Shown here: positions 77 to 45,015 of the stretch, in pieces
How positions within the stretch are numbered: position 1 is the first letter of the stretch
Layout of the letters: each line of letters begins with the position of its first letter
DNA from: Bryum argenteum
Taxonomy: Eukaryota; Streptophyta; Bryopsida; Bryales; Bryaceae
Reading direction: 5' to 3'
NCBI GenBank assembly: GCA_037043015.1
Contig: CM073325.1
Location: 9,961,001-10,025,000, forward strand
Length of the DNA: 64,000 nucleotides
Notes under the pieces: generated by a model
The model's input: only the letters and a program-made list of their open reading frames with translations
Told to the model about the DNA's origin: nothing
Databases searched by the model: none
Translations under genes and position numbers: made by a program

Positions 77-434
77 CTAGAAACATGAAAGAATCCCTCC
101 TGAAATTTCGGAGGTCCGTGGAGGTTTGTTTGGATCATTAGGTGCCACTAAGCTTCTTCGAGGGCTGCTTCGATGATCCATGGCAGAGGGATTGTGCACC
201 AATGTGAAACTCTCCGGAATCCCTCGGCACCCTTGTGGCTCTTCATTCTGGTCCATTACGAGGGTTGCATCGTGCGAGTGCAACACGGATTTGACCTCCT
301 CCGCCACCTCGATGTCGACAGGATTCGATCCTTCGACCAGAACGACGAACGCTCGAGTGCTGCATTCATGAAGCTGCACGAATGCCAACATCAGAATTAA
401 TGAAACTGAGTACCACACCACCCCTCCCCGCCAT
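77..434 (-). pseudogene. Peptide gene copy A, frameshifted
   Basis: This is a copy of the secreted prepropeptide family, closest to copy D. The ATG at 434 opens with MAGRGG, like the intact copies. After codon 12 there is a 4-nt insertion (ATTAATT where D has ATT) inside the signal-peptide codons, so the rest lies in another frame. In that frame the signal-peptide end, the acidic middle, the Arg-Arg and the tail NDPNKPPRTSE are all readable, but the family stop is lost and the frame runs on to 77. An internal Met in the signal peptide could start a shortened product, but a pseudogene is more likely. A TIR element carrying a copia retroelement lies about 54 nt upstream of the ATG and separates this copy from its duplicated promoter, which now begins at about 6707. 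Confidence 0.75.
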
Positions 435-678
435 AGCTTGCAGCAATTTAGAGAATGATGGTGTGTACCTTCTGTATCTTAGGGTCGCTTTACACTATGG
501 ACCATGAAGATTGATCATGGCTTTTTAAAATTTGTGATTGGAGTATAAAGTCCTCTTGGTCCCATTTAGTTTTACACTACCTTGAAAAAAGGAGAATGAT
601 CTCTGCCTTTGAGGTCCCCAAAGTACGCTAAATTTTCTACCGTCGATAATGTTTTCATGGTCTTTTTGATGATAGTTG

Positions 679-1107
679 TGTTGCAAGATATTCCTTTCTT
701 GTACACGATTGACTTACTATACGTATACGATCACGTATACAAGCCAGCTAGTAGCACAGCTCCCTGCCATCATGCTAGTTACACCTGACAGCTACCGCCG
801 TCATGCTTAGTCCAGTACCAGCTTTCTGTTGTGGCATCTATGATGCTTTTCTCTTCCTGTAGCGCTAATGATGCTTTTCTCTCTCCCGTTGGAGTATGTA
901 TACTGCACCAGGCATCTTGTACATGTGCTGAGTGTATGTGTGCATGTGTTAGTGGAGAGCATCTCTTCTGTTTCGGCTTTTCAGGCTTGAGTAAAGATTG
1001 TGTCAAGGCATTTGGCAATCAGTGTGTGCATCGAATATGGGAAGCATTCGGTTGGATCTGGGTTCGTGTCTGTAACTGGGTCTGAGTTCGTGTCTGTAGC
1101 CTCTAAA
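679..1107 (+). repeat. copia 5' LTR
   Basis: It starts TGTTGCAAG and ends CCTCTAAA, so the terminus is not the usual CA. It is preceded by the target duplicate AGTTG. Inside are a palindrome around GTATACGATCACGTATAC, a doubled TGATGCTTTTCTCT motif, and a doubled GTTCGTGTCTGTA motif close to the end. The 3' copy is identical except for a T/C change near 788 and a T/C change near 952. Confidence 0.93.
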
Positions 1108-1121
1108 GGTTATGGGCCCAC
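1108..1121 (+). promoter_or_regulatory. copia primer-binding site, half-tRNA type
   Basis: GGTTATGGGCCCAC starts directly after the 5' LTR. It is the reverse complement of the anticodon stem-loop of plant initiator tRNA-Met (GTGGGCCCATAACC, recalled from known plant sequences), not of the tRNA 3' end. Drosophila copia is primed in this way by a 5' half of initiator tRNA. The match is 14 contiguous bases and then breaks off. Confidence 0.8.
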
Positions 1122-1320
1122 GATTTCTTTTTACTCTGATTCAGTCCGAAATAGCAGTATAGCTCATCATACCGTCATTTATCACGTTTTTTTTCTGCAG
1201 CATTTGGGAATCAAAAGCGTGTGAACTTTCCGAAAAGCATTAAGTCTACAGTGGCAGTGTCGATAGAGTTGTTGTCAGTCTTTGTCAGTTGAGAATTGAC
1301 CCCTTATTTCTTTCTCAAGA

Positions 1321-4300
1321 ATGGATACAAACGCTGAGTTACGTAACGTCAAAAGCTACAATGGACTGAACTTCCACCTCTGGAAGTTCCAGCTCCGAGC
1401 CATCTTGCTTGAGCAGGATCTCATGGGGATTGTCGATGGAACAGTACCGCTACCGACAGATGTCGCTCGGCAAGCATAATGGATTAAAAAGGATAATCAG
1501 TGCATTTCCTTGCTTTGCAAAGCAGTAGATGAGTCTGTCTTAGAAACTCTCATGAATTGTACTACGTCCAAAGAAATCTGGGATAAACTGAAGCTATTAC
1601 ATGATCAATCTGCACATGAGTCAGTGCATCATATTCAGCAGCGATTTTATGAATGTAGAATGGAAGGCACAGATACCATAGCATCCTTCATGGGTAAACT
1701 TGAATTGATAAAAAGCTCGCTAATTAACGCAGGTGACAACTCCATCACCGAAGCAAGCTTGATAGCGAAGGTTCTTGCAAACTGCCCGGCCGGCCTTCTG
1801 ACGCTTTCCTCATGCGCATGGGACAACGTCGATGATGCATCAAGGACTCTCAGCAACCTCACCATCCGTCTACTGCGCCATGAGATTAGACTAAAGAACG
1901 AAGATAAGGAGGAAGAGAAGGTCGCAGTGGCATATGCAGCGGCCTATAACAAGCGACCGAACGGCACCGGCAGTTTCAGCTCGTCACAGGCACAAGGTGG
2001 TGGTGGTCCAGCGCTTACGTTTGAACAACGTCAGGAGCGCCGAAGGGAGATCCATGAGCGAAAGAAGGTGACAACTTGTTGGAAGTGCGGCAAGTTGGGC
2101 CACTGGGCTCGAGAGTGCCCTTCCAACGATAGTCCAGGCGACTCATCCGAACTGCTTGAAGAGCATAAGTCAAATATGGAGCAAGTGTCTCAGCTACCGG
2201 CACCATCCAGCCATCGAGCCTGCATGACAGCGCTGACGGCTGCCGACTGCTCATCTTGGTACCTGGACAGCGGATGCACAGACCACATGACGAACATTAG
2301 GAGCCACTTCTCGACCTTCACAGACATCAGCTCCGAGAAGCGCACCGTTCAGGGAGTCGGCGGCATCTTCTTGGAAGTGGTTGGCACAGGCGACATCAAC
2401 ATTCGTGTTCATCTAGGCAACACCGAAGAGCTTGCCATACTCACAAAGGTTCTTTATGTTCCTACCTTGGGAACCAGTCTGTTTTCTTCTCAGAAAGCAG
2501 CTCAGAAGAACATCGATACAATCACGTCAAAGTCCTTATGCCGCCTCGTCACTCAATCAGGATAGATTGTCATGCGAGGCACACTAGTTAACAAACTTTA
2601 CAAATTGTCGATCACTCCTCAGACACCCAGCCGAGCTGTAGCATTTCACGTGGGAAGTTTTGGTGTGTCGACCAAGAAGGACGGCATTCAATCGCTAGAT
2701 ACTTGGCACAAGAGATTGGGTCATGTTCATTTTGACATGATCAAGAAGATGGCATCTCATCAGACCGTTAAAGGACTTGCTCTCACGGGAAAGCCTGGAA
2801 CACACCAGTTCTGCAGTGGATGCGCTTATGGCAAGAATCAACGAAGCAGGTTCCCATTCAATGAGGAACGCCAGAAAGCGAGTGTTACATGTGCTCTTGT
2901 GCACACTGACATCTGTGGGCCAATGAGCACGGCCACAGTCAACGGAGCCAAGTACTTCATTCTTTTTAAAGATGATGCTACAGGCTTTCGCGTCGTTGAA
3001 CTTCTCCAGAGGAAGTCTGACGCTTTGAGCTGCTTCAAAGACTTTGTCAACCAAGTTCGACGGGAGACTCAGTCAAGAGTGGTCAGGCTTCGATCAGATC
3101 GTGGCTCCGAATTTACCAGCCTGGCTTTTCGGGACTTTTGTCGCCAACAAGGCATTGTGCAGGAGCTTACCACTGTCTACACTCCGGAGCATAACGGGGT
3201 GGCGGAACGGGATAATAGAACGATCATGGAATCCGTCAGAAGCATGATCTACAGTGCCAATGTCCATCAAAGATTCTGGGGTGAGGCCCTACACACTGCG
3301 GTGTACTGTTTGAACAGGTCAGGGACTCGAATGCTGGATGGACTGACTCCTTTCGAGCAGTGGCACGGAGTGAGGCCCTCTGTATCACACATGAGAATCT
3401 TTGGCGCTGATGCCTTCGTCTTTGTACCAAAAGAGCTGCGTACAAAGCTTGATCCTAAGAGCACTCGAGGAATATTCATGGAATACAGTCGCCAAAGCAA
3501 GGCTTACAGAGTCTGGGTGAATGGCTCGCGAAAGATTGTAGAATCGAGAGATGTCATCTTTGACGAGTCCAGCGTACTCATTGGCGTCTATGCTGCTACG
3601 CCTGCTCAGGCACCAATACGCACACCCTCACAGGCTCCGTTACTAGAAAGCTCCATGCCTCCACCGTTTCTTGGGCGTTTGGTGCCACATGCGGTTCCAC
3701 CTCCTGCTGCCTATCACCCACAGCCGGCCACTGTTGTGGTCGACATGATGCCTCTTTCGAGGTCCAACAATGAGCAGGAAACATTACCGCCACCGGACGA
3801 TACCAGTGATGATCCACCTTCGAGTGACCCAGTTCATAACTCCAGTACAACTGCCGATGATAAAGATGGTCGGGTGATCGCTAATGCTGGAACGTCTGGC
3901 TCAGAAGGCGAAGAACCTGAAGAAATCTTTGGCGGCTTTCGCACCATCTGCGACAGCACACTTGCGACTTGGGAGCAAGTTACGCTTGCCGATGAAAACT
4001 TTGACTCGTTCTCTTCCGAAATCCAGTTGGGACTGGAACTTGCAGACGGTCAAGAATTGCCTCGATCTCAAGTGGAGTTAACGATCAGTGGGAGTCGGGA
4101 CAAGCTCCAGTCAGAAACGGCACCAGTAGAGCTTGGTCAGCCGGTGGGAGAGCCTGATCAGAGAATGTGCATCGACATCTGCTCCGAAGTGCCTGACGGT
4201 GAAAGAGCGCCACTCCCTCGGCCGCAACGCGAGCAGAGACCGCCCAATCGACTAGGCGAGTGGGAGTACCTGCATCCTACAAGCTCGTTCGTTGCGATGG

Positions 4301-5914
4301 CCCAAGCGGGGTTACCGCCGGTACCACTGGACCCACAGTTCTATCATGAAGCTACACAGTCTCCAGATGCCATACACTGGCAGGATGCCATGCAACGTGA
4401 GCATGCGTCACTCCTTGCCAATCGCACTTGGGTGCTGACTGAGCTACCTGTAGGACGAAGGGCGATCCAGAACAAGTGGGTGTACCGGACCAAGTACGCC
4501 ACCGACGGGTCTGTGAGCAGGTACAAGGCGCGCTTGGTAGCAAAGGGTTTCTCGCAGCGAGAAGGAATAGACTACTCTGAGACTTTTTCACCAGTGGTGA
4601 AGTTCGATTCCATAAGAACTATACTCTCCATTGCTAGCGTTGAGGACATGCATGTGCTACAGTTTGACGTTGAAACAGCATTTCTTCACGGAGCGATTGA
4701 GGAGGACATTTACATGGTCCAGCCGAAAGGATTTATCGACCACGACAATCCGACTCTCGTCTGCAAGCTCCATAAAGCACTGTACGGGCTTAAGCAAGCC
4801 TCTCGTGTTTGGAACAAGAGGTTCCACGAATTTCTCATCCAGCATGAGTTAACTCCTAGTCAGGTTGACCCTTGCGTTTACATCGGGACTGGTGCAAGTC
4901 GCCTTTTTCTCACACTTTTTGTGGATGATGGAATCATCTGCTGTTGTGATCTGGCACGTATTAACACCGTGCTTGACTCGATGAAGGGCATTTTTAGCAT
5001 CACAACTGGAGATGCCGAAGTGTACGTTGGACTCCATATCTCCAGGAATAGGAGCCGGCGCATCCTGCAAATTGATCAAAGCCGCTATATCCGACGCAAG
5101 CTGGCCGAGTACAACTTCGACACCTGCGCGCCTCTCTCGGTTCCTGCTGACCCACATGCGTCAATGAACTTTATGTCCACAATTGACGAGGCCACAGATC
5201 CGACTTTTCCGTATGCTGAAATACTTGGCGGTCTTCACTTCGCAAGTCAAGGAAGCCGCATCGACATCACTTACGCGACTGGGCATGCTTCCAAGTTCAC
5301 CAGGAACCCGACGGAAGATCAGTCACATCTCGGGAGCAAAGCGGATCCTGAAGTATCTGCAGGGCACCTCCGACTTGCGCATTACCTATTCAGCAACTGA
5401 TGAGACTAACATCCTCCATGCTTACTGCGATGCAGATTACGGAGGTGACCTTGATGACAGGAAATCTCGGTCCGGTTTCGTCATCACATTGAATGGTGGT
5501 CCAGTTGCATGGGGCAGCCGAAAGCAAGGCGCTACTGCGGCATCCACGACTGAAGCGGAATATATCGCTGTCCACTTGGCGTCGCAGGAACTTGTCTGGA
5601 TGAGACAGCTCATGCAAGATCTTGGCTATCCCCAATCGACTCCCACTCTCCTCCACAGTGACAACCAGGCCGCGATTCGACTGGTGAGAAATCCCGAGTT
5701 CCATCGAAGAACCAAGCACGTGGACATCAAATATCACGTTATCAGGGACCACTTTCAGCAGCAGCGGTTACAAGTTGCTTACGTTCCAACGACTGACAAT
5801 GTTGCTGACCTTCTGACGAAGCCTCTGCCTCGAGATAGGTTCCACCGTCTCACTAGTCTGCTTGGCCTCACGGCTACACCATGCGACTCCATCGATGACT
5901 ATGGCAGTGGCTAA
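1321..5914 (+). pseudogene. copia gag-pol, two stops and one frameshift
   Basis: The polyprotein frame starts at ATG 1321. Gag has a CCHC zinc knuckle (CWKCGKLGHWAREC, about 2077-2118). Protease shows DSGCTDH (about 2266). Integrase has an HHCC region and a DDE triad (HTD, RSDRG, PEHNGVAE; about 2900-3210). Reverse transcriptase shows ALYGLKQA and the FVDDG catalytic motif (about 4920). RNase H shows YCDADY, TEAEY and SDNQAA (about 5420-5680). Lesions: TAA at 1477-1479 in gag, TAG at 2563-2565 between protease and integrase, and a frameshift at about 5318-5335 just before RNase H. The family makes one continuous polyprotein. The reading either side of each stop is otherwise uninterrupted, which suggests single-base changes. 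Confidence 0.95.
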
Positions 5915-5944
5915 CTTCTCGGCTTCCTGAACAGTAAGTCAATC

Positions 5945-5955
5945 GTGAGTGGGAG
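5945..5955 (+). other. copia polypurine tract
   Basis: GTGAGTGGGAG directly precedes the 3' LTR. A purine-rich tract in this position primes plus-strand DNA synthesis in LTR elements. It is assigned from position and composition. Confidence 0.65.
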
Positions 5956-6384
5956 TGTTGCAAGATATTCCTTTCTTGTACACGATTGACTTACTATACG
6001 TATACGATCACGTATACAAGCCAGCTAGTAGCACAGCTCCCTGCCATCATGCTAGTTACACCCGACAGCTACCGCCGTCATGCTTAGTCCAGTACCAGCT
6101 TTCTGTTGTGGCATCTATGATGCTTTTCTCTTCCTGTAGCGCTAATGATGCTTTTCTCTCTCCCGTTGGAGTATGTATACTGCACCAGGCATCTTGTACA
6201 TGTGCTGAGTGTATGTGTGCATGTGTTAGCGGAGAGCATCTCTTCTGTTTCGGCTTTTCAGGCTTGAGTAAAGATTGTGTCAAGGCATTTGGCAATCAGT
6301 GTGTGCATCGAATATGGGAAGCATTCGGTTGGATCTGGGTTCGTGTCTGTAACTGGGTCTGAGTTCGTGTCTGTAGCCTCTAAA
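5956..6384 (+). repeat. copia 3' LTR
   Basis: This matches the 5' LTR over all 429 bases apart from two substitutions and is followed by the target-site copy AGTTG at 6385-6389. It would carry the polyadenylation signal of the element. Confidence 0.93.
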
Positions 6385-6706
6385 AGTTGAGTCGAAGCAA
6401 ATGCCTCGACTCACCTACAATCGAGAAGATCATAAGGTTCAAAAAATATTAATTGGCTAATGTTCAACTATTAAAATTAAAAGGAGGAAAAAGGGAAGGG
6501 TAAAAGAGAGATTGATGAGGATTTATATGAGAAATTTGAGCTCAAACTTATCCCAGTCTAAATTCACTTCACACTACAAGAGTGACCAAGCCATTCAAAT
6601 AATCCATTTTTTATTTATCATGGTCACAGCTCTTGGCCAAGAGCCACCACCATGATAATAGTTTTATTTTTTTTGTCATGTCTCAGTCTCGGTCCATAGT
6701 GTAAAG

Positions 6707-8260: not shown

Positions 8261-8291
8261 TTCGCCAGAAAACATGCAACTGACGATCTCC

Positions 8292-8633
8292 TCACGGGCT
8301 TACGGTGGGGTTTGCATCCGGAGGAGGGTCTTCTTTACATGCACAGTTTAAGATTCTTGCAGTTCTGCTTGGACGATCCATGTCGTGGGAGAATTTGTCT
8401 ACCGACATGGAATTCTTCGGCATCCTTCGGCTCCCCAGTAGCTCTTCATCGTGGTCCAATACCGGTGTTGCATCGTGCGACTGCTCCACGAATTTCAACT
8501 CCTCCTCCACCTCGATGTCAGCAGGAACCGATCCTTCGACCGGAACAATGAATGCTCTGCTGCTGCATTCATGAAGCTGAGCTAGTGCCAACAACAGAAT
8601 GAAACTGAGTGCCACACCACCCTTGCCCGCCAT
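8292..8633 (-). CDS. Secreted prepropeptide, copy B
   Basis: A 113-residue precursor with the family layout. Residues 1-27 are a signal peptide with a Leu-rich core ending near HECSSRA. The middle is acidic and contains the block SHDATPVLDHDEE and the dibasic GSRRMP (about 67-72). The C-terminal tail after Arg93 is ILNCACKEDPPPDANPTVSP, with two cysteines and a proline cluster. The start is ATG 8633; the open frame continues upstream but other copies begin at the same MAG. A TATA box lies about 90 nt upstream. With copy F it forms a subtype whose tail has an NCxCK motif instead of RR followed by PDxPP. Function is unknown; a processed apoplastic signalling peptide is the inference. Confidence 0.72.
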   Translation of the reverse strand: MAGKGGVALSFILLLALAQLHECSSRAFIVPVEGSVPADIEVEEELKFVEQSHDATPVLDHDEELLGSRRMPKNSMSVDKFSHDMDRPSRTARILNCACKEDPPPDANPTVSP

Positions 8634-8721
8634 GGCTAGCTGAGTGCAACTAATCTGCTGAGGGGAAGAATGTGCGCAGTTCTCCCGTGTATCTGATTGA
8701 CTGTAAGCTTTGCAGCTAATC

Positions 8722-10567: not shown

Positions 10568-10912
10568 TCATGGCCTGGAGGTCGATGGAGGACCGTCTGG
10601 CCCATTTTTTGGCAGTAAGCTTCTTCGACCGCTGCTTCGATGATGCATGGCAGAGGCTTTGTCCACCGACGCGGAATTCGTCGGCATCCTTCGACTCCCT
10701 TGGAGCTCTTCATTGTCATCCAATACTAGTGTCGCATCGTGGGAATGCTCCACGAATTCGACCTCCTCCGTCACCTCGTGCAACCGCTCACGGTTGTGAA
10801 CTGCTTTGGCACCATCACGCGGAAGAGTGAAAGCTCGGCTGCTGCATTCATGGAGCTGCACGAGTGCCAACAACAGAATGAAACTGAGTGCCACACCACC
10901 CCTGCCCGCCAT
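10568..10912 (-). CDS. Secreted prepropeptide, copy C
   Basis: A 114-residue precursor. The signal peptide is about residues 1-27 (MAGRGGVALSFILLLALVQL start). The acidic middle contains EEVEFVEHSHDATLVLDDNEE and the dibasic GSRRMP (about 72-77). A second Arg-Arg at 96-97 precedes a 17-residue tail, SLLPKNGPDGPPSTSRP. Copies D and E have tails of exactly the same length after Arg-Arg. The start at ATG 10912 matches the family. I infer secretion, cleavage after RR and possibly proline hydroxylation. No known peptide family is recognised. Confidence 0.75.
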   Translation of the reverse strand: MAGRGGVALSFILLLALVQLHECSSRAFTLPRDGAKAVHNRERLHEVTEEVEFVEHSHDATLVLDDNEELQGSRRMPTNSASVDKASAMHHRSSGRRSLLPKNGPDGPPSTSRP

Positions 10913-19713: not shown

Positions 19714-21590
19714 GTGGAGGCTGACTTGGAGGTTGACTTCGAAGTTGGAGAAGAAGAGACTCCAGCAGGTTGTGACCCACTGCGAGACAACGCCTCTGCT
19801 CCTCCAGGTACGTATCCTTTACACATGAATGTGGATGACGGGGAAGATAATGATGTAGAAAATGAAATTATGATGCCTCACGATAATGGTGGAGGAAATG
19901 ACAGGTGAGAGACGATTCCAAACATAGAGAGTGAATCGATAGTGATGGAGATAACGAGAACATGGGATCAATTCATGAGCAAAGTGGGCTAAAATGGGAG
20001 TTTAGGGATGAAACATGGGGCAATACCAACTTTGCTTACAACCCACACCCCAACCCATTTAGTGGTCCTAGAAGAGGCTCCACAAGGAGATATCGCTCTC
20101 TGCCTTCTTTCCAACACTTGTTCTCTCTTTTTTGGACTATTGAGATTTTACAAAAAATTGTGGATGAGACAAACCGGTATGCCAATTGTCCAATTGATGA
20201 GAATGGAAACATTAGAGGTGGTCGATATTGGACTAATATAAAAATTTCTGAGCTTCAAGCCTTCATGGCTTTAGCTCTATACATGGGCTTGAAGCCACAG
20301 CCTAACTATTATACATATTGGATGGAAGACAAATTGTTCCATTGTCCTATTATTTCTGGAATTTTCACTAGGCAGCGGTTCCAGGAATTGAGGAGGTGTC
20401 TTCATCTAACTAATGTGGATGGAATTTCTAGAGGTGATGTGGGTTATGACAAAATAGGTCAAACCCGATGGCTAGTCAATGCTATTAGGGATCGTTGCAA
20501 ACTTGCGTGGTATCTTGGCAAACATGTAACTGTGGATGAGATGATGATACGGTACAAGGGTACCTATTCTCCCATCCGACAGTACATGCCCAAGAAGCCA
20601 CAAAAATGGGGTTTGAAAGTTTGGTGTCTTGCATGTTCTATTTCCAAATATGTTTGGAGTTTTGAGATATATTGTGGGAAGGAGGATGTTGTTGTTCCTC
20701 CACCGGTTCATGCAGATGGAGATGCTAGGCTTGCTAACAATGTAGTGGTTAGACTACTTGATGGACTTTGGAACATGTGGCATGTTGTGACTATGGATAA
20801 TTTTTTTCAGCATAGGTTTGTTTACTTCTCTTCTATCTAGAGGTGTGTATGCCACTGCACCGTGCGTGCGTGCAAACCGTGTGGGTCTCCTGTACTTTGA
20901 AGAATCTAGCAACTTTCAAGAACGTGGCTCGGGTACTATTGTGTGGAAAATGCATTTGAGCGGGACAATTTCTTGTGTCATGTGGAAGGACAAGAAACCC
21001 GTCCTACTCATTTCCACACATAGCAACTCTATTCGAGCTCCATGTGAGAGAGTTGTGACGAGTTCCTCGGCGCAATGGTCCTATCCGTGAGCTAGTGCGG
21101 ACATCACCGGTCTTATTGGAGTATACTACTCACATGCGAGGCGTTGACGTAGCGCACCAACCACGGGCCTCATAGTTGTTGTCGTGCGATCGATCGCACA
21201 AGTGGTGGCATAGGATTTTCTTTTTCTCTTAGATGTTTCATTGTCAACATGTACATCATTTACTTAGACTGTTGCGCAAATGTGAACGTTCACCGCCGAG
21301 TCCCGATCCCTCCCATGACTCACCTTCAGTTCAAGAAAGGTTTGTGTGAGGCATTATTGCGTGAATGGCCTATGAGAACCACTGAGCCTACTGACATTCC
21401 ACCACAACCACGGCGACCGGTTATTTGCACCCCATCTTATAGTAAGTTACGTCGTAAATGTGTGGTATGTAAAGTCAAGTCACCGCATTATTATTGCCAT
21501 AAGTGTGGCAACAAGTGGATGTGCCTTCATAGTGGATGCTATGAGAGGTGGCATACAGCGATTGCACAACAACGGGCGCGAAATTATTAG
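19714..21590 (+). pseudogene. piggyBac-like transposase, broken
   Basis: A DDE_Tnp_1_7-type transposase in pieces. 19714-19908 encodes an acidic N-terminal stretch. 19962-20840 (292 codons) is the longest intact part, with the first catalytic Asp in HVTVDEMMIRYKG (residue 192) and the second in VVTMDNFF (residue 279). A +1 frameshift near 20815 leads into LFTSLLSRGVYATAP, then GTIVWKMHLSG and DKKPVLLIST. The third Asp is readable in MRGVDVAHQ (about 21146), but stops and shifts interrupt this part. 21249-21590 ends with a Cys/His-rich domain (CVVCKVKSPHYYCHKCGNKW and CLHSGCYERWH), typical of the family C-terminus. All three acidic residues remain, but the frame does not. Confidence 0.88.
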
Positions 21591-23852: not shown

Positions 23853-24182
23853 TCATGGATCGGAGGACTTTGGAGGTCTGTCTGGATCATTAGGTGCCAG
23901 TACGCTTCTTCGAGGCCTGCTTTGATGATCCATGGCAGAGGGATTGTCCACCAGTCTGACATTCTCCGGAATCCCTCGGCACCCTTGTGGCTCTTCATTC
24001 TGGTCCATTACTAAGGTTGCATCGTGCGAGTGCAACACGGATTTGACCTCCTCCGCCACCTCGTTGTGGACAGGATTCGATCCTTCGACCGGAACGATGA
24101 CCGCTCGACTGCTGCATTCATGAAGCTGCACGAGTGCCAGCATCAGAATGAAACTGAGTGCCACACCACCCCTTTCCGCCAT
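23853..24182 (-). CDS. Secreted prepropeptide, copy D
   Basis: A 109-residue precursor. Signal peptide about 1-27 (MAERGGVALSFILMLALVQL). The acidic middle has EEVKSVLHSHDATLVMDQNEE; GCRGIP replaces the GSRRMP of other copies. Arg-Arg at 91-92 is followed by a 17-residue tail, SVLAPNDPDRPPKSSDP, the Pro-rich family signature. The start is ATG 24182 as in the other copies; the open frame runs further upstream. It is the closest relative of frameshifted copy A, and its upstream DNA gives the uninterrupted version of A's promoter. Likely secreted; receptor and role unknown. Confidence 0.75.
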   Translation of the reverse strand: MAERGGVALSFILMLALVQLHECSSRAVIVPVEGSNPVHNEVAEEVKSVLHSHDATLVMDQNEEPQGCRGIPENVRLVDNPSAMDHQSRPRRSVLAPNDPDRPPKSSDP

Positions 24183-25752: not shown

Positions 25753-26082
25753 TCAGGGCGGTGAGGTCGGTGGAGGTTCGTCTGGCCCATTACTGATCGT
25801 TAGTTCTCTCCGAAGGCTGCTTCGATGATGCATGGCAGAGGCTTTATCCACCGACGCGGAAATCTTCGGCATCCTTCGGCTCCCTTGGAGCTCTTCATCG
25901 TGATCCAATACTAGTATTGCATCGTGTGACTGCTCCACGAATTCGACCTCCTCATGCTCACGGTTGTGAACTGCTTTGGTACCATCACGCGGAAGATTGA
26001 AAGCTCGGCTGCTGCATTCATGGAGCTGCACGAGTGCCAACAACAGAATGAAACTGAGTGCCACACCACCCCTGCCCGCCAT
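25753..26082 (-). CDS. Secreted prepropeptide, copy E
   Basis: A 109-residue precursor, very similar to copy C. Signal peptide about 1-27. The middle contains EEVEFVEQSHDAILVLDHDEE and GSRRMP (about 67-72). Arg-Arg at 91-92 precedes the 17-residue tail ELTISNGPDEPPPTSPP. The start ATG is 26082; a TATA box lies 91 nt upstream. A few residues after the first Pro-Arg are deleted relative to C (HNREHEEVEF against HNRERLHEVTEEVEF), which shows how freely the propeptide varies while the tail keeps its length. Confidence 0.76.
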   Translation of the reverse strand: MAGRGGVALSFILLLALVQLHECSSRAFNLPRDGTKAVHNREHEEVEFVEQSHDAILVLDHDEELQGSRRMPKISASVDKASAMHHRSSLRRELTISNGPDEPPPTSPP

Positions 26083-27738: not shown

Positions 27739-28089
27739 TCAGTCTCTCCCGCTTGTAATTGGAGTAGGGTCTTTGCATACACAATTTAAGTTTCTTCCAC
27801 AGATGTATCGATGATCCATGTCGTCTGTGGGGGTGGCAGAGGCATCGTCCACCGATATGGAACTCTCCGGCATTCTTCGGCTCCCTTGCACCTCTTCCTC
27901 AATGTGGTCCAATACTTGCGAATGCTCCGCGAATTTGACCTCCTTCGCTACCTCGTGCAGCCGCTCATGGTCGTCGACTGCTTTGGCTCCATCCCGCGGA
28001 AGCATGAATGCTCGGCTGGTGCATTCTTGAAGCTGCACCAGTGCCAACAACAGAAAGAAACACAGCGCCACACCACTACTGTCCGCCAT
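27739..28089 (-). CDS. Secreted prepropeptide, copy F
   Basis: A 116-residue precursor and the most diverged minus-strand copy. Signal peptide about 1-27 (MADSSGVALCFFLLLALVQL). The propeptide keeps the acidic block, GSRRMP (about 69-74) and SISVDDAS. The tail NLNCVCKDPTPITSGRD follows CGR and has two cysteines. It resembles the copy B tail (LNCACKEDPPP) rather than the RR plus PDxPP type. The start ATG 28089 is also the frame start. It is the last minus-strand member; the next gene, G, is divergent. Confidence 0.7.
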   Translation of the reverse strand: MADSSGVALCFFLLLALVQLQECTSRAFMLPRDGAKAVDDHERLHEVAKEVKFAEHSQVLDHIEEEVQGSRRMPESSISVDDASATPTDDMDHRYICGRNLNCVCKDPTPITSGRD

Positions 28090-29319: not shown

Positions 29320-29574
29320 ATGGCGAGCAGGGGTGGTGTGGCACTGAGTTTCATTCTGTTGCTGGCATTCGTGCATGCAGTTTCATGAGTGCAGCAGTCG
29401 AGCATTGATCCTTCCGGTCGAACTCAAGAATCGAATCCTGTCGACATCGAGGTTGCTTCCGTGGAGCATTCTCCTGCCGTGCAGTTGAGATTTCTTTGCA
29501 GTATTCGGAGAATGTTACAACATCTTGTTAATGCTCCAGACGCGCCCCCAATCACAAGCCCGATGAAGCCATGA
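29320..29574 (+). pseudogene. Peptide gene copy G, frameshifted
   Basis: ATG 29320 begins MASRGGVALSFILLLAFV as in the family. A tandem duplication of TGCA (GTGCATGCAG) then shifts the frame and TGA at 29386-29388 ends it after 22 codons. The signal-peptide end is readable one frame over. A further 5-nt insertion near 29420 leads to the frame that carries SNPVDIEV, then Arg-Arg and the tail MLQHLVNAPDAPPITSPMKP. All family landmarks are present but in two frames. It is a recent pseudogene with an intact TATA box. Confidence 0.78.
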
Positions 29575-31924: not shown

Positions 31925-32209
31925 ATGGCGGGCAGAGCTGGTGTTGCACTGAGCTTCGTTCTATTGCTGGCGTTCGCTCAGCTCCACGAATGCAGCAGCC
32001 GAGCCTTCATTCTTCTTCCGGTCGAAGGATCGATCTCAGTCGACCACAACGCGGGAGTCAAATTCGTGAAGCATTTCGCCGCCATGCACATGAGTTTCAT
32101 TTGCTGTTTCCGAAGTGCGTTCGATCATCTTGAAGCTAATACTCCTGACCGTCCTCCACCGACCAACCCATCTATTGATGAGGAAATCACTCAATCGTTT
32201 GAGATTTAG
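31925..32209 (+). CDS. Secreted prepropeptide, copy H
   Basis: A 94-residue precursor with a short propeptide. Signal peptide about 1-27 (MAGRAGVALSFVLLLAFAQL). The middle lacks the SHDATLVLD and GSRRMP blocks. Instead of Arg-Arg there is CCFRS (Arg63), then FDHLEANTPDRPPPTNP at about 66-82, the cleanest version of the family motif. A 12-residue extension SIDEEITQSFEI follows, so processing may also occur after the motif, or the stop has drifted. The start is ATG 31925 by alignment; the frame is open further upstream. No clear TATA box was found. Confidence 0.7.
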   Translation: MAGRAGVALSFVLLLAFAQLHECSSRAFILLPVEGSISVDHNAGVKFVKHFAAMHMSFICCFRSAFDHLEANTPDRPPPTNPSIDEEITQSFEI

Positions 32210-34424: not shown

Positions 34425-35625
34425 ATGGAGGAATCAAGTACGTGCAAGTATCTCTCCGCTCAGTCGATGTGTGCTCCTGCCTGTTCCAACTCGCAATATT
34501 TGAGTGCACAAGATGAGAGCATGGTGGAAAAGAGGATAGAGGATTCGAAGGTCCACTGGAGTCCGCTGTCGGAGAATACTAGCAGCTTGAGTGGGGAGGA
34601 AGTGGGAGCAGATAACAGGGAGGTCTTTAAATTTCTACAGTCGCAACCTGGATGGGGTCGCTTTTTTCGGACGTTCAATGAAGGCTCAAATGATAAGTTG
34701 GTAGTGGGTGAGAAGTTTGCCGTGGGCGGCCAAGCTGAGATTTTTGATGCGCATGTCTCTTGGAATGATCCATTTCTGTAGCAATATTTTTCGCAGAAAA
34801 AGCAGAAGTGGGTGCTCAAGGTATTCAAGGAGGGTAGTCTTTTGCGAAATTTGCATAGACAATGGCCGCAAGTATACAAATGGTACTCAGATTCTTTCAA
34901 TGATACCAGATTCATGCGAGGAGATCATTAGGTCCTTCTAAGTCCAAGTAGTACTTCTATAAGTGATACCTTGTGTGGGACACTGCTGGATGATGGTCAA
35001 TTTGCATTTTTGATGTGGAAGATGGAAGAAGACCTACGGAGTTTGATCAATCGGAAGATGTGTGCCAGGAACAGACTAGATGTTGGGCCATTTCCTAAGG
35101 AGGAAAGCGAAAGATTTATGTTTCAGATAGCACTCGGGGTTCAGGGGCTGCATAAGTATGACATTGTGCATAGGGGCCTCAAAGCAACCAATGTTTTAAT
35201 TGATGAACACAAAAATTGTTGTGTGGCAGATTATGAACATTTGTTCAATTGGTGTAGTTGGAACAGGATTTTGGAAGGCTCTTGAAATATTGCAAGCTTG
35301 CAAAGACAATACAATGAGCCAAAAACCGGAGGTATTTTCAAAAGTAGCTGATGTTTACAGCTATGCTATGATATGCTATGAGATCTTGACTGGGAATTAT
35401 CCATTTCAAAATCAAAGAGAAGTAGTGACAAGGGACTCGGTGATAGGAGGTCAACAACCCATACTTCCATCATATGTCGAAGAGTGGAAACGGACACTTT
35501 TATATAGATGTTGGGAATCAAATCCTAAAATTAGGCCCTCAATTCAAGAAGTGTTGAGTACTATTGCAGCGAATACAAGTTCGAAATGGGTCAAAGACAT
35601 GGATTTAATGGAAACGAAGAAATAG
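34425..35625 (+). pseudogene. Protein kinase pseudogene
   Basis: A protein kinase-like sequence starting at ATG 34425 (MEESSTCKYLS). The N-terminal part leads to KLVVGEKFAVGGQAEIFDAH, in the position of the Gly-rich loop. TAG at 34779-34781 and TAG near 34927 interrupt it in frame, around VLKVFKEGSLL (VAIK position). The catalytic loop reads HRGLKATN, so the HRD Asp is lost. The DFG position reads ADYEH. A +1 shift near 35270 leads to the C-lobe (VADVYSYAMICYEILTG, CWESNPKIRPS) and a stop at 35623. It differs from the K1/K2 type at 45-60 kb. Degenerate catalytic residues suggest it may have been a pseudokinase before the stops arose. Confidence 0.8.
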
Positions 35626-37250: not shown

Positions 37251-37255
37251 AACAA

Positions 37256-37264
37256 CTATATAAC
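37256..37264 (+). promoter_or_regulatory. TATA box of copy I
   Basis: CTATATAAC about 90 nt before the ATG of I, the same spacing as in copies B, E and G, although the surrounding bases differ. Confidence 0.5.
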
Positions 37265-37351
37265 TATGCTCAGACAGTCAGTTCCTGTTCAGGTTAATAA
37301 GCACATCGTCTCTTACACAGCTGCAGAGCAATCCCGGGTAGCTCACTAGCT

Positions 37352-37633
37352 ATGGCGTGCAGAACTGCAGGTGTGGCGATCAGTTTCCTGTTGTTGCTGG
37401 CACTCGTCCAGATCCATGAATGCAGCGGCCGAGCTCTGATTCATCCGCCAGAAGGACCGCAAGCATTCGGCATCGATGAGCATGTGGCGAAGGCGGAGGT
37501 CAAGGTCGTGGAGGATGAAGGAGGAGATGCATCAGCCATGAAATTTTTTCGCATCTTTCGAAGATTCCTGGCTCCAGCTTCGACTCCGCCAAGGTGTAAT
37601 TGTCCGGACGGACCTCCACCGACAAAGCCCTGA
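37352..37633 (+). CDS. Secreted prepropeptide, copy I
   Basis: A 93-residue precursor. Signal peptide about 1-28 (MACRTAGVAISFLLLLALVQ, then IHECSGRA). A short acidic propeptide (KAEVKVVEDEGGDASAMKFF) precedes IFRR at 68-71 and the tail FLAPASTPPRCNCPDGPPPT plus KP at the end. The tail combines the Cys pair of the B/F type with the PDGPPPTKP motif of the C/D/E type, so it links both subtypes. The start ATG 37352 is in the frame shared by the family. Likely secreted and cleaved after Arg-Arg; ligand function is inferred. Confidence 0.75.
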   Translation: MACRTAGVAISFLLLLALVQIHECSGRALIHPPEGPQAFGIDEHVAKAEVKVVEDEGGDASAMKFFRIFRRFLAPASTPPRCNCPDGPPPTKP

Positions 37634-38020
37634 TCGATCAATCGCTTTTTTGCTGCGGCACTCACTCCTGAAGGCTGAGCAGTGGTGGTAGCTGTAATCA
37701 GGATAATAGATGATTGATTGAGTGCACCATGCTTGTTTGAGTTTTGAGATTCTACTGGATCACTTCAGGTGAAAGTTCGATACGAAATAGTATGTATCAG
37801 TAGAAGTGAATGAAAGTTCGATTCATACTTCGCATATTCTGTAGAAACTACTAATCTCAATTTCAAAAAATTGGTATATACATCATATTCATTGAATTGA
37901 GACTCTCCTAGTTGCAGCCATTGAAACATATGTAATGAGTCTCTAATGCCTCCTTCAAAAACACCTATCAAACAAAGAGTTTGTAAGCAATCGTATATAC
38001 ATGTGCATATTAAGTAAGTA

Positions 38021-38122
38021 CTCCTTTTGTCTCATTCTTATTATCCAGTAGGTTCTTTCAAATGTACCTTCCATGGTATATTTGAGAGAACCTATTGGAC
38101 AATTAGAATGGGACGGAGGGAA
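38021..38122. mobile_element. Stowaway-type MITE
   Basis: A 102-bp palindromic element with ends CTCCTTTTGTCTCATTCTTA and, inverted, TTAGAATGGGACGGAGGGAA, flanked by TA (38019-38020, 38123-38124). The right end matches the plant Stowaway end CTCCCTCCGTCCCA. No coding content. Confidence 0.85.
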
Positions 38123-38124
38123 TA

Positions 38125-38874
38125 TATGTTTGTGCCTTACTACGCCACAAGTGTATTTTCTTTCTTACGTACATTGTTTTGAACAAGGCTTTTGCTTGCA
38201 TATTTAGTTCCACTATCTTGATATTTTAGCATGTTATTTATTCACTTGTAAATTCTCTTGACATCATACGATATCCCATATGCAATCTTTGGTGGAATCT
38301 TCAAAAAACATCAAAAGCAGTTCTCTTATTTTATGCAGATTTAGCTTTCATATTAATAATTTTAATTTAAAGTCAAGGCACTAAAAACAGATCATTTTTT
38401 ATCTCTGATTTTCAAGAATACGTTGATCAATGTAGTTGGACGTCCTTGAAAATTTCCATGCTTCAAATTATCAATAGTTACATGTAGATTTATTCTTGCA
38501 CCAAAAGTTGCATACCAAACAACCTCAGTAACTAAATCCATATTTATACATAATTGTTGTGATATCACCAAAATCATTTTCATTCATAATTCTATAACAT
38601 TGTATATAGAATCATTCAATTATCTTTAGAATCAGTGCTTTCAACCTTCTAACAAGCATCATTCTCAAGTATCAACTCTGCTCACTTTTGGATCCAATTT
38701 TTGTTACCATATCATTTGGAAATATGGGTAGTTCATGATCAACACTCAAGGTAGCTTGCATATCCTAACTACAAAGATTCAATGGTTTGACTAAAAGCAT
38801 ACATCAATGTAATTGCTCGAACAAGTTGGAGTCAGTTAGTCTTTCTATATGTCGAACTTGTTGGGAAAAAGTTG
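38125..38874. other. No gene seen
   Basis: AT-rich spacer between two MITEs. Nothing recognisable. Confidence 0.5.
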
Positions 38875-39173
38875 TACAGTCGGGTACCAATGGGCTTACG
38901 ATTTTTCTACGGAAGAAGTTTTTGTGAAAAGTTTGAAAATTCACTGTATACTCAAAAATGATCGGATTTGAAAACCGTAAAGTGTTTTGGAATCAAATCT
39001 AAGTGTACTATAGTATTGTGATAAAATAACAAAATCTTTTTGTGATATCATTCATCATATTACAATTAGTTTATACATCATCTACCATTAACTACTCCTA
39101 TCTTTTGTTTCAATTACAATGAACATTTCAATTGCAAATTGAAAATGAGCTCCCAAAGTTGTTCTTGGGATAC

Positions 39174-40693
39174 TTAATCCCTATACGTCCCTGATGTCGA
39201 AAAACGACATTTTGGATGAGGCCGGGGATGTTTGAACGGCTGTCGATTTTTCATCCCGTCTTTGCTTCATCCGGTTGTTTTTCGAGGTTACTGCAGATCA
39301 AGTGTAGTTTACTGTGGGATAGTTTCCATTACCCCAATAGTTACTGTGATTTTTGGAATGATTTTTGAAAGGGAGGAGGTTTTTGTTTTGAGGCCACTTT
39401 GCAAATTTTGTCCCAAAATTTTTGGCTGCAATTTGAGAGTGGGCGGCAAGATTTAGTGCTGAAGTGAGGAAAGAAATTGTGCTGCCCTTGACGGTTTACT
39501 TCAACAAAAAGGTGATTTTGGAAAAATAGGCATTTACATAGAGCAATTACTATGTCAGGGTTGTTGGACAACCTCCATTTTGGGCTGCCCAAGTACTACT
39601 TTGGGACCCCCAAGTATTACCTTGGCACCCCCAAGTACTACCTTGGGCCCCCAAGTACTAACTTGGGACCTCCAAGTACTAACTTGGGACCCCCAAGTAA
39701 ACACTTGGGACCCCATAGTAAACACTTAGGACCCCCAAGTACAAACTAGGAACCCCTAAGTACAAACTTGAGACCCCCAAGTACAAACTTGGGACTCCCT
39801 AATAATAAGTTGGGATTCTCAAGTACGAACTTGGGACTCCCAAGTAATAACTTGAGACCCCCAAGTAAAAACTTGAGACCCCCAAGTACAAACTTGGGAC
39901 CCCCAAGTACAAACTTGAGACCCCCAAGTACAAACTTGGAACCCCCAAGTACAAACTTGGGACCCCCAAGTAAAAGTATTTAAAATTACTTCCGAGAAAC
40001 CTAAAATTACTTTCCGTAAAAGTCTGAAGTGGGCAGGGAGAGGGCATGGAAAGCACCCGCCACCACATTCTCTTTTTTCTAGGAAGTTATGTACTTGGGC
40101 ACATGCTCTTTATTAGCTAACTGACAGACTTTTATCTAATACTTATAGCATTTGTCAGATTGTCATGCCTCAAGCATGTATACCTTATATCTTTTTCCTT
40201 TTTTCCTTATGAAGCATGACTGTGTCTTCTTCTTTTTCCAGCACACAGTACCCAAAGTTAGAAGGGCAGTCTCCAAATAAAGGAAGAAATTTTGACCCAT
40301 GTGCATTGCAAAGTGCTTTGTGAAGGCATGAAAATTTCAAAATTATATTTGTTTCCGGCTTTATCTCCTTACTTTGAGACTCAAAATTTTGTAGTTTTCT
40401 GTTTCTGGAGTTCGAATTTTGATCAAGGTGTATTTCCTCCAATACCCCCAAAAGTAGGGTCTGCCCCTCTATTTTCAACCCTCAAATCTCGTTGGTTTTG
40501 GAATGGATGGAGACCCAAAAGAACTCAAAAGTACACTTGAATTGACTTGCTTATAATTTAGTTATCTTTGAAGAGGATCTTACGGTTAAAATTCTCATAT
40601 TTGACTCCTATTCATCTCTATTGTGATTTTAGTTTTTGAAGATTTTTTGCTACATTTCAGCGTTTTGACCCCCCAAGGACGTTTAGGGGTTAA
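39174..40693. mobile_element. piggyBac-type MITE with minisatellite
   Basis: TTAA-TCCCTATACGTCCCTGATG at the left and GGACGTTTAGGGG-TTAA at the right, 1520 bp. It is inserted into the mariner-like element and interrupts its GATACTT... sequence. It carries the palindromic minisatellite at 39588-39976. Frames at 40185-40540 have no recognisable content. Confidence 0.75.
39588..39976. repeat. Palindromic 21-bp minisatellite, about 18 copies
   Basis: The unit is ACCCCCAAGTACAAACTTGG (20-21 bp). Each unit contains CCCAAGT and ACTTGGG as an inverted pair around four bases, so each can form a hairpin. The copies vary in the central bases. Long frames on both strands (STNLGPP and YLGVPSL repeats) come from the repeat. 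Confidence 0.9.
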
Positions 40694-41290
40694 GTGCATA
40701 TTTGAATGATAATAATAGTTTTCTCTTTTGATTCTTTGGTTTGGAGTGGTTTCTTATGAGTTTCCAATCAAAACTCAAGGTGGAAAAGAAATCTTCCTTT
40801 GAACTTGGCAAGAATACTAAAATAATTTAAGCTAAACATGAGAGTTATTCTTCTAATAGCCTTCAACCATATTTCAGGTCCTTGAAGGACATTTGTAGTA
40901 GTGTGAAAGGCTTTGGAAAAGTTTACGATACATTAGAACTTTTCAAGGAACTCCTCCAAGCCAAAACCAAAACAAAAAGTGTGTCAACAATACCAAAAGT
41001 ATGCACTAAAGTATCCCAAAAACAACTTTGAGAGCTCAATTTCAATTTGTAATTGAAATGTTGAAACAAAAGGTAGGAGAAGTTAATCTTAGATGGTGTA
41101 TAAAATAATTGTGATATGATGAATGATATCAAAAAAAGGTATTGGTATTTCATCACAATGTTATACTACACTCCAAAACACTTTACGGTTTTCAAATCCG
41201 ATCATTTTTGAGTTCACAATGAATTTTCAAACTTTTTATATAAAAATTTCCTCCAAGGAAAAATTCGTAATCATGTTGTACCCGACTATA

Positions 41291-42230
41291 CAGTCCCCTC
41301 TAGATGATTTACGAATTCAGCATTCAAGAACAATTTTCCTATCAACTTTGAACATTGCTTGTGCACTCAAAAATGATCCGATTTCAAAACCGTGAAGTGC
41401 GTTGCAACCACAACGAAGACTACTACATCTTTGACATGATTGCACACATTCGACAATGAAAGGAATATAAACGATTAGAAATACTTCATACACTACCGAC
41501 AAACAAGTGTTACCATTCTTTGCTTCAATTTGAATGTTCATTCAAGTTTGCAAATTTGAAATGAGCTTGCAAGTTTGTTCTTTAGAAACTGTAAATCAAA
41601 CTAATGCACAATTTGTATCACTTCTACTTCATGCTACAATCTGGAGCGGAGTCTTAAATATTCTTGATACTTAAAGAATTTCTATCAAAACTTGTAGAAG
41701 CCCTTCCCACTCCTCAACAATGTTGCACTTGAAAGTAAAGGGTGGTGCATGAGACATTGAGTGATATCTCTCATGAATTGATTACTAAGCTCAGATATGT
41801 TTGTTATTCTTGTCGCTTTTAAGGAATGACTTATCAATCTACTATGAATACCATGTAATACCTTTACAAAAATTGCTCCACACCACAACACAAGAGGAAG
41901 AGATACAAATCATGCATTACAAATGAGCTACACTATTTAAAGAACAAACTTGCAAGCTCATTTCAAATTTGCAAGCTTGAATGAACATTCAAATTGAAGC
42001 AAAGAATGGTAACACTTATTTGTCGATAGTGTATGAAGTATTTCTAATCGTTTATATTCTTTTCATTGATGAAGGTGTACAATAGTATTGGAGAGGTAGT
42101 AGTCTTTATTGCGGTTGCAACCCACTTTACGGTTTTGAAATCGGATCATTTTTGAGTGCACAAGCAATGTTCAAAGTTGATGGAAAACTGTCCCTCAGTG
42201 CTGAATTCGTAAATCATCTGGAGGGTACTG
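41291..42230. mobile_element. Mariner-like MITE with long TIRs
   Basis: Ends CAGTCCCCTCTAGATGATTT and, inverted, ATCATCTGGAGGGTACTG, with TA at 41289-41290 and 42231-42232. Arms of about 300 bp are inverted copies, for example GCTTCAATTTGAATGTTCAT. It abuts the previous element, and a single TA separates them. Confidence 0.75.
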
Positions 42231-42232
42231 TA

Positions 42233-43183
42233 CAAAAAAGTCAAATAAGTCTTTACATTATCGTTACTTGAACGTTGAAATGAAAGTCAATTGGTCTTCA
42301 TGCATGACTGTTTGAGACGATTATAAGAATGAATCATTCTTCATAATATAAATTGCTGCTTGTTGCCGACAGCTTTGAACAAAAAGTGAAGATGTCATTG
42401 AAAAGGGGTTCTGAGAAAGCAATCAGCCATTGTTTATCAGATGACTATCATGCACTTTAAGGTAGACTCGGTGAGAGTACTTAGAAGGTGCACTAAGTCA
42501 TGTAGTAATGAAAATATCTTCCAAGAAGGTACTTTCTTGGATAAATAGATGTATCTACTTCTCCTCATAGGAAGTTAAGGAGAGTGCTCAATAATGGCTT
42601 AATTTTCAAGTTTCCTCGTTTGTAGTGAAGTAAACACTGTAAGCAATTTTCGTACATGGGGATAGTAGATAAAAGGATAGTTTGTATATCATTTTTGGAT
42701 TCTTCTACAATCTACTGTGAATTTTTGAAGCTGCTTTGTACCTAATTTTAAACCCTATAATGTTTGCCATGGATACATGCTACTCTTGAGTGAAGAAACT
42801 ATACAGTACATCTCGCTGAAGAAGCCTAGTGCTCCATTATTGATATTGCCCCAAATTTTATGCACTATCCCTCATGTAGAAAATGCAAACTATTCTCTTA
42901 CAGTGTTCATTTGGTCATCTACAATAAAATTTCTCAACTCATATTGCTTAGTTTACAAATCTCTCTAGCTAACACTAGACATTTGGAAGTTGACAAATTG
43001 ACTTTGATTGGGATTTGTAAACCACACTTATTGAAGTCCCCGTCCATTTGACGGACCAATTACATTCCGTAACCGGTTGGCCGTTTTGTTTTGTCGAGGT
43101 GGCAGTATATGATTGGCTCTGAGCATGCAGGTTTGCAAACAATAACCTCGCTATCCGAGTCGATTATGAACATGAGATCATAA
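42233..43183. other. No gene seen
   Basis: AT-rich spacer. Frames at 42777-42968 and 42860-43051 overlap in different registers and have no recognisable content. Confidence 0.5.
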
Positions 43184-43637
43184 CCTCAATTCCGTTAAAA
43201 TGGCACTATTCCATGTGCCATTTTAGCGGAGCTAAAGTGCCATAGTACGTGCGTATTACAGATTTACAGTGCAAACGTGCCATTTTACAAGCATATTTTT
43301 GAACTGAAGTTCAAAAGTATTTATGCCTACAAAATGGCATGTTTATTAATATCACACATGTACTTCGTAATATCACCTAAATTTCTGTAATATCACCCAA
43401 ATTTCCACAATATCACACATTTTTATGGTTTTTGGCTTTTGGACACAGTAAAAGGGCAATATTTCTCAACGGCCGTTTAGAAACATTGTTGTTTTTGAAC
43501 AGCCGTTAAGAAATTTATTTACCCTATCATGTCAAAACTCGACAAAAACTCGACAAAAACTAGCATCATTTTTTTCATTTTAAGCACCCCAAAAAGCGTT
43601 ATTTTAGCGGAATAACGTCATTTTAATGGAACTGAGG
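43184..43637. mobile_element. Short TIR element (MITE)
   Basis: CCTCAATTCCGTTAAAATGG (43184) and its imperfect complement ending TTTTAATGGAACTGAGG (43637) form inverted ends of about 29 bp. The element is 454 bp with an internal palindrome around GGCACTATTCCATGTGCC. The target-site duplication is not clear and the superfamily is unassigned. Confidence 0.55.
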
Positions 43638-44690
43638 ATTTATCAAAATCGTGATGAAGATGAAAGAAAAAATCACTTGAAACCGGTTATTTTTTGTGGA
43701 TATGGATCGTTTGCAAAGTCATCATCTCTTTTAAGCTTGCTTTGTGGTGTGCGCAACCAAACTAGTTGATCATGGTTTGGTGGAATCTCTCTATACTTTC
43801 GTGATGCTTTGATTTTTTCCTTTGTTAAATTTCAGTTGTACTCTGGTGAAAATCTTGGTATATAAGTGCAACAAAAAGAAAAGTGAGATACACAGAAGTA
43901 CACTTTATTTCAAAAATGTGCACACAAGGCACGCACAAATACACGATGAAGTGTAACCTGGGCAGGCGCAAAATGAGTACAGAGAAAAGCACTCATAATT
44001 AATACCTCAATGGACATAACACACATAACACAGGAACACAATTAGAAGCCTGGATGGACATAACAAAATTATATGGAACACAATTATAAGCCTCGGTATG
44101 AGGTTCATTCGTTCCATGAAGCGCCATATCATCATACATATCTACAGAAGGGCATTAGTTTCATGTTTAGTATTATTTTTTGATGAAGGTAGCACCCACA
44201 AAGGAACAAAAGCAGCGCCAAAATCTCAAGCAACCGCTCAAATGTGAAATGTGACACCATTGTAACCTATTGCCGAGACCACCTGCTCGGCTCAACAAAA
44301 TAGCCAACCCGTTACGTCCGGTAATAGTTTTATTGAAACCGGTCATCAGAATAAAACCGGCTCTCGCCCTCACGGGCTCGCCACCTTCACAGAACCGGTT
44401 CTGGACCGATAACCGGTCCAATAAAGCAATTACCTAATACATAATCCTTGACCATGTAAGCAAAAATCAGGTTACTCATCGACCTGGCAGATGATATTCA
44501 CGATGTGCATCGTTGGTTTACTTTGGGCAATCTCTTCCTTCAGTTGTAGGAGTAGTTAACATATTAAAGAGGTGATGAAGATTGTACATATTAACATTTT
44601 AATGGATTCTATGTTGGGTTAAAATCCTAATTCTCACCAGTTCTGAGTTTAAGCACTTCATCTCTCGCAGAGCGAAGGAATTCCAGGTAG
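43638..44690. other. No gene seen
   Basis: Spacer upstream of copy J. Around 44330-44425 there are several ACCGGT/AACCGG words. The 82-codon frame 44173-44421 on the minus strand has no recognisable content. Confidence 0.45.
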
Positions 44691-44692
44691 CT

Positions 44693-45015
44693 ATGGCGAG
44701 CAGTGCTGGTGTAAGTTGCATTGAGTTTCATTCTGTTGCTGTCACTCGCACAGCTCCATGACTGCAACAGCCGAGCATTCATACCTCGGGGATGGGGTCA
44801 ATTCAGTGGACGATGAGGGAGCTGCATCAACCATCCACATGCACATGTTGCGCACTGTTCGACGAATCTTAGCTCCAGCTCTGTATGACTATAATTGTGA
44901 AGCAAAACCTCCGACGACAAAGCCCCTGAGTGAATCTCTCATGGTTCTTGTGCTGCCATGGCTCATAAATTTGCTTCTAGTTTCAGAACAAAAAAGAATG
45001 AGAGGCTTCGGTTGA
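44693..45015 (+). pseudogene. Peptide gene copy J, frameshifted
   Basis: ATG 44693 begins MASSAGV like the family. A 4-nt insertion (GGTGTAAGTTGCATTG where H has GGTGTTGCACTG) shifts the frame, and TGA at 44759-44761 ends it after 22 codons. The signal-peptide core (FILLLSLAQLHDCNSRAF) is readable one frame over. A further shift near 44795 leads to the frame with VNSVDDEGAAS, then VRR and ILAPALYDYNCEAKPPTTKP. The family stop after KP is lost and the frame continues to 45015. It is closest to copies H and I. Confidence 0.72.

Follow-up and report, generated by a model that had tools for sequence, protein, structure and literature searches.

A tandem family of candidate secreted-peptide precursors with fast-changing proline-rich tails in Bryum argenteum

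The first description of the PROSCOOP genes of Brassicaceae counted 14 of them, arranged as a pair of tandem clusters that contain transposon remains, and a later count brings them to at least 50; all encode a signal peptide, and their C-terminal region is not highly conserved, according to the accessible parts of the two reports (PMC6382344, PMC13082318). The accessible text of the later one also names SBT6.1 and SBT3.5, two plant subtilases, as cutting at RxxL and RxLx sites, with RALF23 cut after RRIL and PROSCOOP12 after GRRLM (PMC13082318). For CLEL6, the available portion of another study presents the SBT6.1 cut, made in the Golgi, as an obligatory pre-processing step for which the RRAL site is required (PMC7162652). 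Here we analyzed a window of 64,000 bases from the genome of Bryum argenteum (C5:9,961,001-10,025,000, where C5 is contig CM073325.1; the genome comprises 258.8 Mb in 25 contigs) and found ten copies of one small gene whose closest analogue by layout is PROSCOOP. Seven copies are complete from ATG to stop (B, C, D, E, F, H and I) and three are broken (A, G and J). Judged from their sequence, they probably belong to a lineage-specific new family of a known type of peptide precursor, in which a signal peptide and a mostly acidic propeptide would be followed by an R-x-L site and then by a short, Pro-rich peptide built on the core [N]-x-x-D-x-[P]-P-x-[T/S]-x-P. The copies are given below with their position in the window, the residues at the R-x-L-type site and the tail.

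Copy A, about 77-434, minus strand: broken by a frameshift near the start; tail RRSLVAPNDPNKPPRTSE, core Asp changed to Asn.
Copy B, 8292-8633, minus strand: intact, 113 aa; site ARIL; tail end CKEDPPPDANPTVSP.
Copy C, 10568-10912, minus strand: intact, 114 aa; site RRSL; tail SLLPKNGPDGPPSTSRP.
Copy C tail module, 10571-10621, minus strand: 17 codons after Arg-Arg.
Copy D, 23853-24182, minus strand: intact, 109 aa; site RRSVL (R-x-x-L); tail SVLAPNDPDRPPKSSDP.
Copy E, 25753-26082, minus strand: intact, 109 aa; site RREL; tail ELTISNGPDEPPPTSPP.
Copy F, 27739-28089, minus strand: intact, 116 aa; site GRNL; tail end CKDPTPITSGRD.
Copy G, 29320-29574, plus strand: broken by a stop and frame changes; remnant SIRRMLQHLVNAPDAPPITSP.
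Copy H, 31925-32209, plus strand: intact, 94 aa; without R-x-L; core NTPDRPPPTNP, then 12 more residues.
Copy I, 37352-37633, plus strand: intact, 93 aa; site RRFL; tail end NCPDGPPPTKP.
Copy J, 44715-45015, plus strand: broken by a frameshift after the signal peptide; core Asp lost.

An earlier note on this DNA had proposed a prepropeptide family of at least ten copies. The window holds ten, seven of them intact, and their likeness goes beyond chance, with pairwise tblastn E-values among window copies as low as 1e-53 (C versus E). The note had also read the tails accurately: the 17-residue tails after Arg-Arg in C, D and E and the TPDRPPPTNP of H are exact, and RR does stand ahead of the tail in A, G, I and J. 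Its coordinates for C, D, E, A, G, I and J are right as well.

The family extends well past the window. Six single-copy searches of the genome and a profile search of 220 kb, whose counts are lower bounds, identified at least 34 family places, 29 of them in a 131-kb cluster (C5:9,874,667-10,006,015) that includes a gap of about 53 kb without copies. Five places are dispersed, at C5:18.09 Mb, C1:23.32 Mb, C4:7.38 Mb and C2:12.83 Mb (two); a further match at C2:140637 (E 0.155) was discarded as chance. Intact single-exon open reading frames (ORFs) of 75-116 codons occupy 23 of the 34 places. When the 220 kb were screened by motif only, for a hydrophobic start and D..P..[ST]..P near the C-terminus, 22 of 4261 stop-to-stop frames were retained; all 22 also match the family profile, and one intact member, Q9936, was missed. 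This confirms that the prepropeptide-like genes form a real family, larger than first noted.

All 23 intact ORFs open with a signal-peptide-like start, with peak Kyte-Doolittle values of 2.4-3.6 (hydropathy only), and the middle region is net negative in 20. In an alignment of the 23, mean pairwise identity is highest in the signal-peptide region (0.68), lower in the 13-column C-terminal core (0.44) and lowest in the middle (0.18). The core is built around two fixed residues: its Asp, and the Pro three residues later, are invariant in all 23; 20 of the genes also have Asn at the third position ahead of the Asp, and 19 have Thr or Ser at the second position past the fixed Pro. Grouping the genes ourselves into 16 subfamilies and taking one sequence from each, we found D..P within the last 25 residues in 16 of 16, where shuffling those residues predicts 5.5, and N..D..P in 13, where it predicts 0.39. 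Around these anchors the tails vary, and all 23 C-terminal 14-mers are distinct, some differing at one residue only.

Pro makes up 15-50% of tail residues, with SP, TP and PP pairs, and such tails would also fit small hydroxyproline-rich cell-wall glycopeptides, of the AG-peptide or extensin-like kind, whose Pro-rich tail serves glycosylation and is not released as a signal. A glycomodule needs neither a fixed D-x-x-P nor an R-x-L, however, and the four members compared with Pfam matched nothing there. A hydrophobic C-terminus, as a GPI-type signal requires, was looked for in the 23 intact ORFs and found in none, and a GPI-anchored AG-peptide was rejected on this ground. We consider a cell-wall glycopeptide quite improbable.

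Ahead of the tail, R-x-L occurs in 21 of the 23 intact genes, against 5.6 expected when each middle region is shuffled, and R-x-L or R-x-x-L in 22, against 9.25 expected. Nine long-type genes carry R-x-L, and its Leu precedes their core Asp by 6-9 residues; the distance is 8-16 residues in other subfamilies. The dibasic RR that the earlier note had singled out does not hold as a family-wide feature: only 11 of 23 intact genes have RR in the 25 residues ahead of the core, B reads ARIL, F reads GRNL, H lacks a site of this kind, and R-x-L is the commoner motif. We therefore rejected RR as a general processing site; B, F, Q, U and V all carry R-x-L without it.

The resemblance to PROSCOOP and SCOOP described here is one of layout. 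As described in the available text of the PROSCOOP and SCOOP reports, those families share with the present one a signal peptide on a small precursor, a tandem array with transposon remains, a divergent C-terminus with two conserved residues, and a lineage-limited occurrence (PMC6382344, PMC13082318, PMC9784617). An RxLx or RxxL site is likewise present in many PROSCOOPs, by the accessible account, as it is in 22 of 23 genes here (PMC13082318). The fixed pair differs, however, being S-x-S in SCOOP and D-x-x-P here; S-x-S appears in the last 25 residues of only 9 of the 23, so the family is not SCOOP. The host differs as well, Brassicaceae for PROSCOOP and Bryum argenteum here. The genome has eleven large contigs (7.0-44.1 Mb), 57 GRAS matches, many of which are pieces of one gene, and a plastid contig of 114.6 kb whose G+C content is 21-30% in the three stretches read. 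Genes on the plastid contig run in the order trnS-rps4-trnT-trnF-ndhJ-ndhK-ndhC-atpE-atpB-rbcL-trnR(CCG)-accD, with the protein-gene names assigned by us, and 9chz is the best PDB match of rbcL. Contigs, GRAS matches and plastid gene order point to a bryophyte, and the plastid contig points away from Brassicaceae. A further mark of SCOOP peptides is perception by MIK2.

Other families share single elements of this layout. RGF/GLV/CLEL and RALF precursors also place an R-x-L-type site (RRAL, RRIL) before the C-terminal peptide, as seen in the accessible parts of two papers (PMC7162652, PMC13082318). The Asp-Tyr/PPxH core of the RGF/GLV/CLEL group is found in none of the 23 genes, however. RALF has a four-Cys domain, whereas no member here has more than three Cys past the signal peptide. 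CLE, CEP, PIP and IDA precursors resemble the family in setting a short Pro-rich C-terminal peptide behind a signal peptide and a variable region, and the GPD in some of our tails recalls CLV3-type CLE peptides; in the present family, by contrast, it is the tail and not the propeptide that varies fastest among close paralogues. HypSys peptides are also Pro/Ser/Thr-rich and come out of a secreted precursor, but several are made from each precursor, whereas one C-terminal tail per precursor is seen here. The available section of one report restricts HypSys to Solanaceae (PMC13157962).

We searched the 23 intact genes for eleven hormone motifs, in loosely written form: the CLE 12-mer (RxVPxGPDPxHH-like), the CEP core RPTxPGxSPG, the IDA core PIPPSxPSxRHN, the PIP core SGPSxxGxGH, the RGF/GLV/CLEL core DY...PP.HN, and the PSK, PSY, Pep, CTNIP, CAPE and CIF motifs. 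Each was found in 0 of 23, and membership in a known peptide-hormone family was rejected on this basis. Neither Pfam, with which four of the 23 members were compared, nor a profile search of the PDB yielded a match. A scan of prokaryote genomes, a weak test run with in effect one signal-peptide pattern, returned 23 stretches, none encoding a relative. A literature search, to which most subscription papers were out of reach, turned up no description of such a family among the records listed. Within the reach of these literature and motif searches the family thus seems undescribed, and the observation that its motif is unlike that of known families stands as far as the eleven motifs and the four Pfam comparisons go.

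How the tail evolves relative to the rest of the precursor, here called the carrier, was analyzed in the six closest paralogues, which are C and E in the window and P9946, P9950, P9955 and P9958 to its left. Amino-acid identity among them is 82-100% in the signal peptide, 78-96% in the propeptide and 47-88% in the tail. The ratio of non-synonymous to synonymous divergence (dN/dS) is 0.36 for the signal peptide (bootstrap range 0.09-2.57), 0.61 for the propeptide (0.33-1.19) and 1.13 for the tail (0.51-2.84), and tail dN reaches 0.35 against 0.06 upstream. The earlier note had named in advance equal divergence of tail and propeptide as a result that would count against a signalling or defence peptide family. 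The two are unequal: in column permutations the tail's dN excess was matched in 0 of 5000, and its dS excess has p 0.013. The tail is faster than the carrier and partly of different history. The conserved C-terminus behind a divergent propeptide that the note had described applies between subfamilies, where identity is 0.65 for the signal peptide, 0.40 for the core and 0.17 for the middle, but is reversed among the six closest paralogues.

One cause of this fast tail divergence among close paralogues is visible in a single gene to the left of the window.

P9946, C5:9946938-9947340: gene with a second, older tail module directly past its stop codon.

P9946 ends in the tail DLLMPNEPDRPPPTSPP, and a second complete tail, SLMNVNEEDPPPSTSPP, follows in another frame, overlapping the stop. 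In DNA, the current tail matches the tail of P9958 at 87% identity. The left-over one matches the P9950 tail at 98% and the P9955 tail at 96%, and over the 220 bases past the stop the identity to P9955 is 99% with gaps omitted. These identities indicate that a new tail module was inserted between the carrier and the former tail. In the pair C and P9958 the carriers are 96% identical and the 3' regions just 70%. The array most likely evolves, as these comparisons suggest, by birth and death plus replacement of tail modules behind a near-constant carrier.

A constant carrier, a variable mature region and a birth-and-death array, some of whose places are broken or partial, would also suit an antimicrobial or anti-herbivore peptide, in which the tail or the whole propeptide acts directly on its targets, not on a receptor, and owes its diversity to an arms race with them. 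The tails themselves argue against this. They are short and Pro-rich, their net charge, counted to the C-terminus from the eighth residue ahead of the core Asp, runs from -6 to +1 and is zero or negative in 19 of 23, and 13 of 23 genes have no Cys past the signal peptide. Defensins, thionins and cationic antimicrobial peptides are unlike such short, Pro-rich, non-cationic and often Cys-free tails. We regard direct toxicity as an unlikely explanation.

The tail dN/dS near 1 would equally be expected if these were decaying or non-functional ORFs, spread by local duplication and transposons, with tails that vary because they are neutral; the transposons within the array and the broken or partial places would fit as well. 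The reading frame, however, is under purifying selection in two dispersed paralogue pairs: dN is 0.084 and dS 0.232 for R9941 and its C4 relative, and 0.067 and 0.171 for T9938 and its C2 relative (dN < dS, p 0.009 and 0.018; pooled Fisher p about 0.001). A TATA-like hexamer lies 82-105 bases before the ATG in 10 of 23 genes, a count for which no chance level was computed. Eight broken copies have a tail that can still be read. The core Asp, which together with the Pro is fixed in every intact copy, is lost in three of these, namely A, J and the J paralogue at C5:18092650, which are not independent of one another; it is still present in the other five, as neutral decay would allow. We judge neutral decay highly improbable.

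In a separate observation on the broken copies, J (C5:10005712) and its paralogue at C5:18092650 lie 8 Mb apart; past the signal peptide each is divided over two frames, the same two in both cases. The break thus seems older than their duplication, or the shifted frame has been kept for some reason.

We lean towards the view that these genes encode secreted precursors which release a Pro-rich C-terminal peptide after a subtilase cut at R-x-L, the peptide being a phytocytokine-type ligand or a defence peptide. The precursor would enter the endoplasmic reticulum and lose its signal peptide, a subtilase of S1P/SBT6.1 or SBT3 type would cut at R-x-L, and a peptide of about 10-17 residues would reach the apoplast. 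Since the SBT6.1 cut is a pre-processing step in CLEL6, the final N-terminus of the released peptide could lie further downstream. Pro residues may be hydroxylated, which is plausible given the TP, AP and GP pairs in the tails, and perhaps arabinosylated; SCOOP10 peptides from the apoplast carry hydroxyproline, according to the accessible part of one study (PMC9784617). In the released peptide, the invariant Asp and Pro may serve as a recognition anchor and the variable positions may set specificity. What the sequence itself establishes is the family, its layout, the fixed D-x-x-P, the enrichment of R-x-L, the fast tail and one tail replacement; secretion, the subtilase cut, hydroxylation, activity outside the cell and the role of the peptide we infer.

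Several points weigh against such a release of peptide ligands. Eleven of the 34 places are broken or partial. The R-x-L is weak as a motif, and the 23 genes are related, so the 21 occurrences are not independent and count for less than they appear to; D has R-S-V-L (R-x-x-L) only, H has neither form, and in W9876 the Leu of R-x-L is 31 residues before the core. Positive selection on the tail is not demonstrated, given a dN/dS of 1.13 with a range of 0.51-2.84 and a ratio excess of p 0.175. A terminal His or Asn, common among ligands of LRR-XI receptors, is missing from 22 of 23 tails here. We know of no receptor for the family peptides. The proposal of a new signalling or defence peptide family stands in part: the prepropeptide-like family is real and purifying selection acts in two pairs, but its picture of a conserved tail fails among close paralogues.

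If expressed and released, the peptides would constitute a lineage-specific, fast-changing phytocytokine-like family in a bryophyte. The family would offer a compact test case for ligand diversification around a presumed receptor contact, D-x-x-P, that does not change. The tail replacement in P9946 would be a direct record of one route to a new ligand. A wider idea, possible but doubtful, is a signalling repertoire of the bryophyte lineage in which a near-constant carrier takes alternative tail modules, giving 23 ligands on one D-x-x-P core that might act in immunity, self-recognition or gamete attraction.

The window also holds mobile elements and kinase-like genes. Near copy A, at about 678-6388, we recognized by eye a Copia-type long terminal repeat (LTR) retrotransposon with gag-pol frames spread over several ORFs; its LTR stretches are 99.3% identical over 434 bases, which points to a fairly recent insertion. 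PiggyBac-like transposase frames, also recognized by eye, lie at 19962-21590. Kinase-like fragments were seen by eye at 34425-35625 and 59698-60199. Two similar, soluble-looking proteins with two kinase regions each (Pfam) are encoded on the minus strand, at 45342-47909 (855 aa) and 53605-56118 (837 aa); the first is pseudokinase-like, with HGD and GDL replacing HRD and DFG, and the second is canonical. In this they resemble the tandem kinase proteins that act in disease resistance of cereals.

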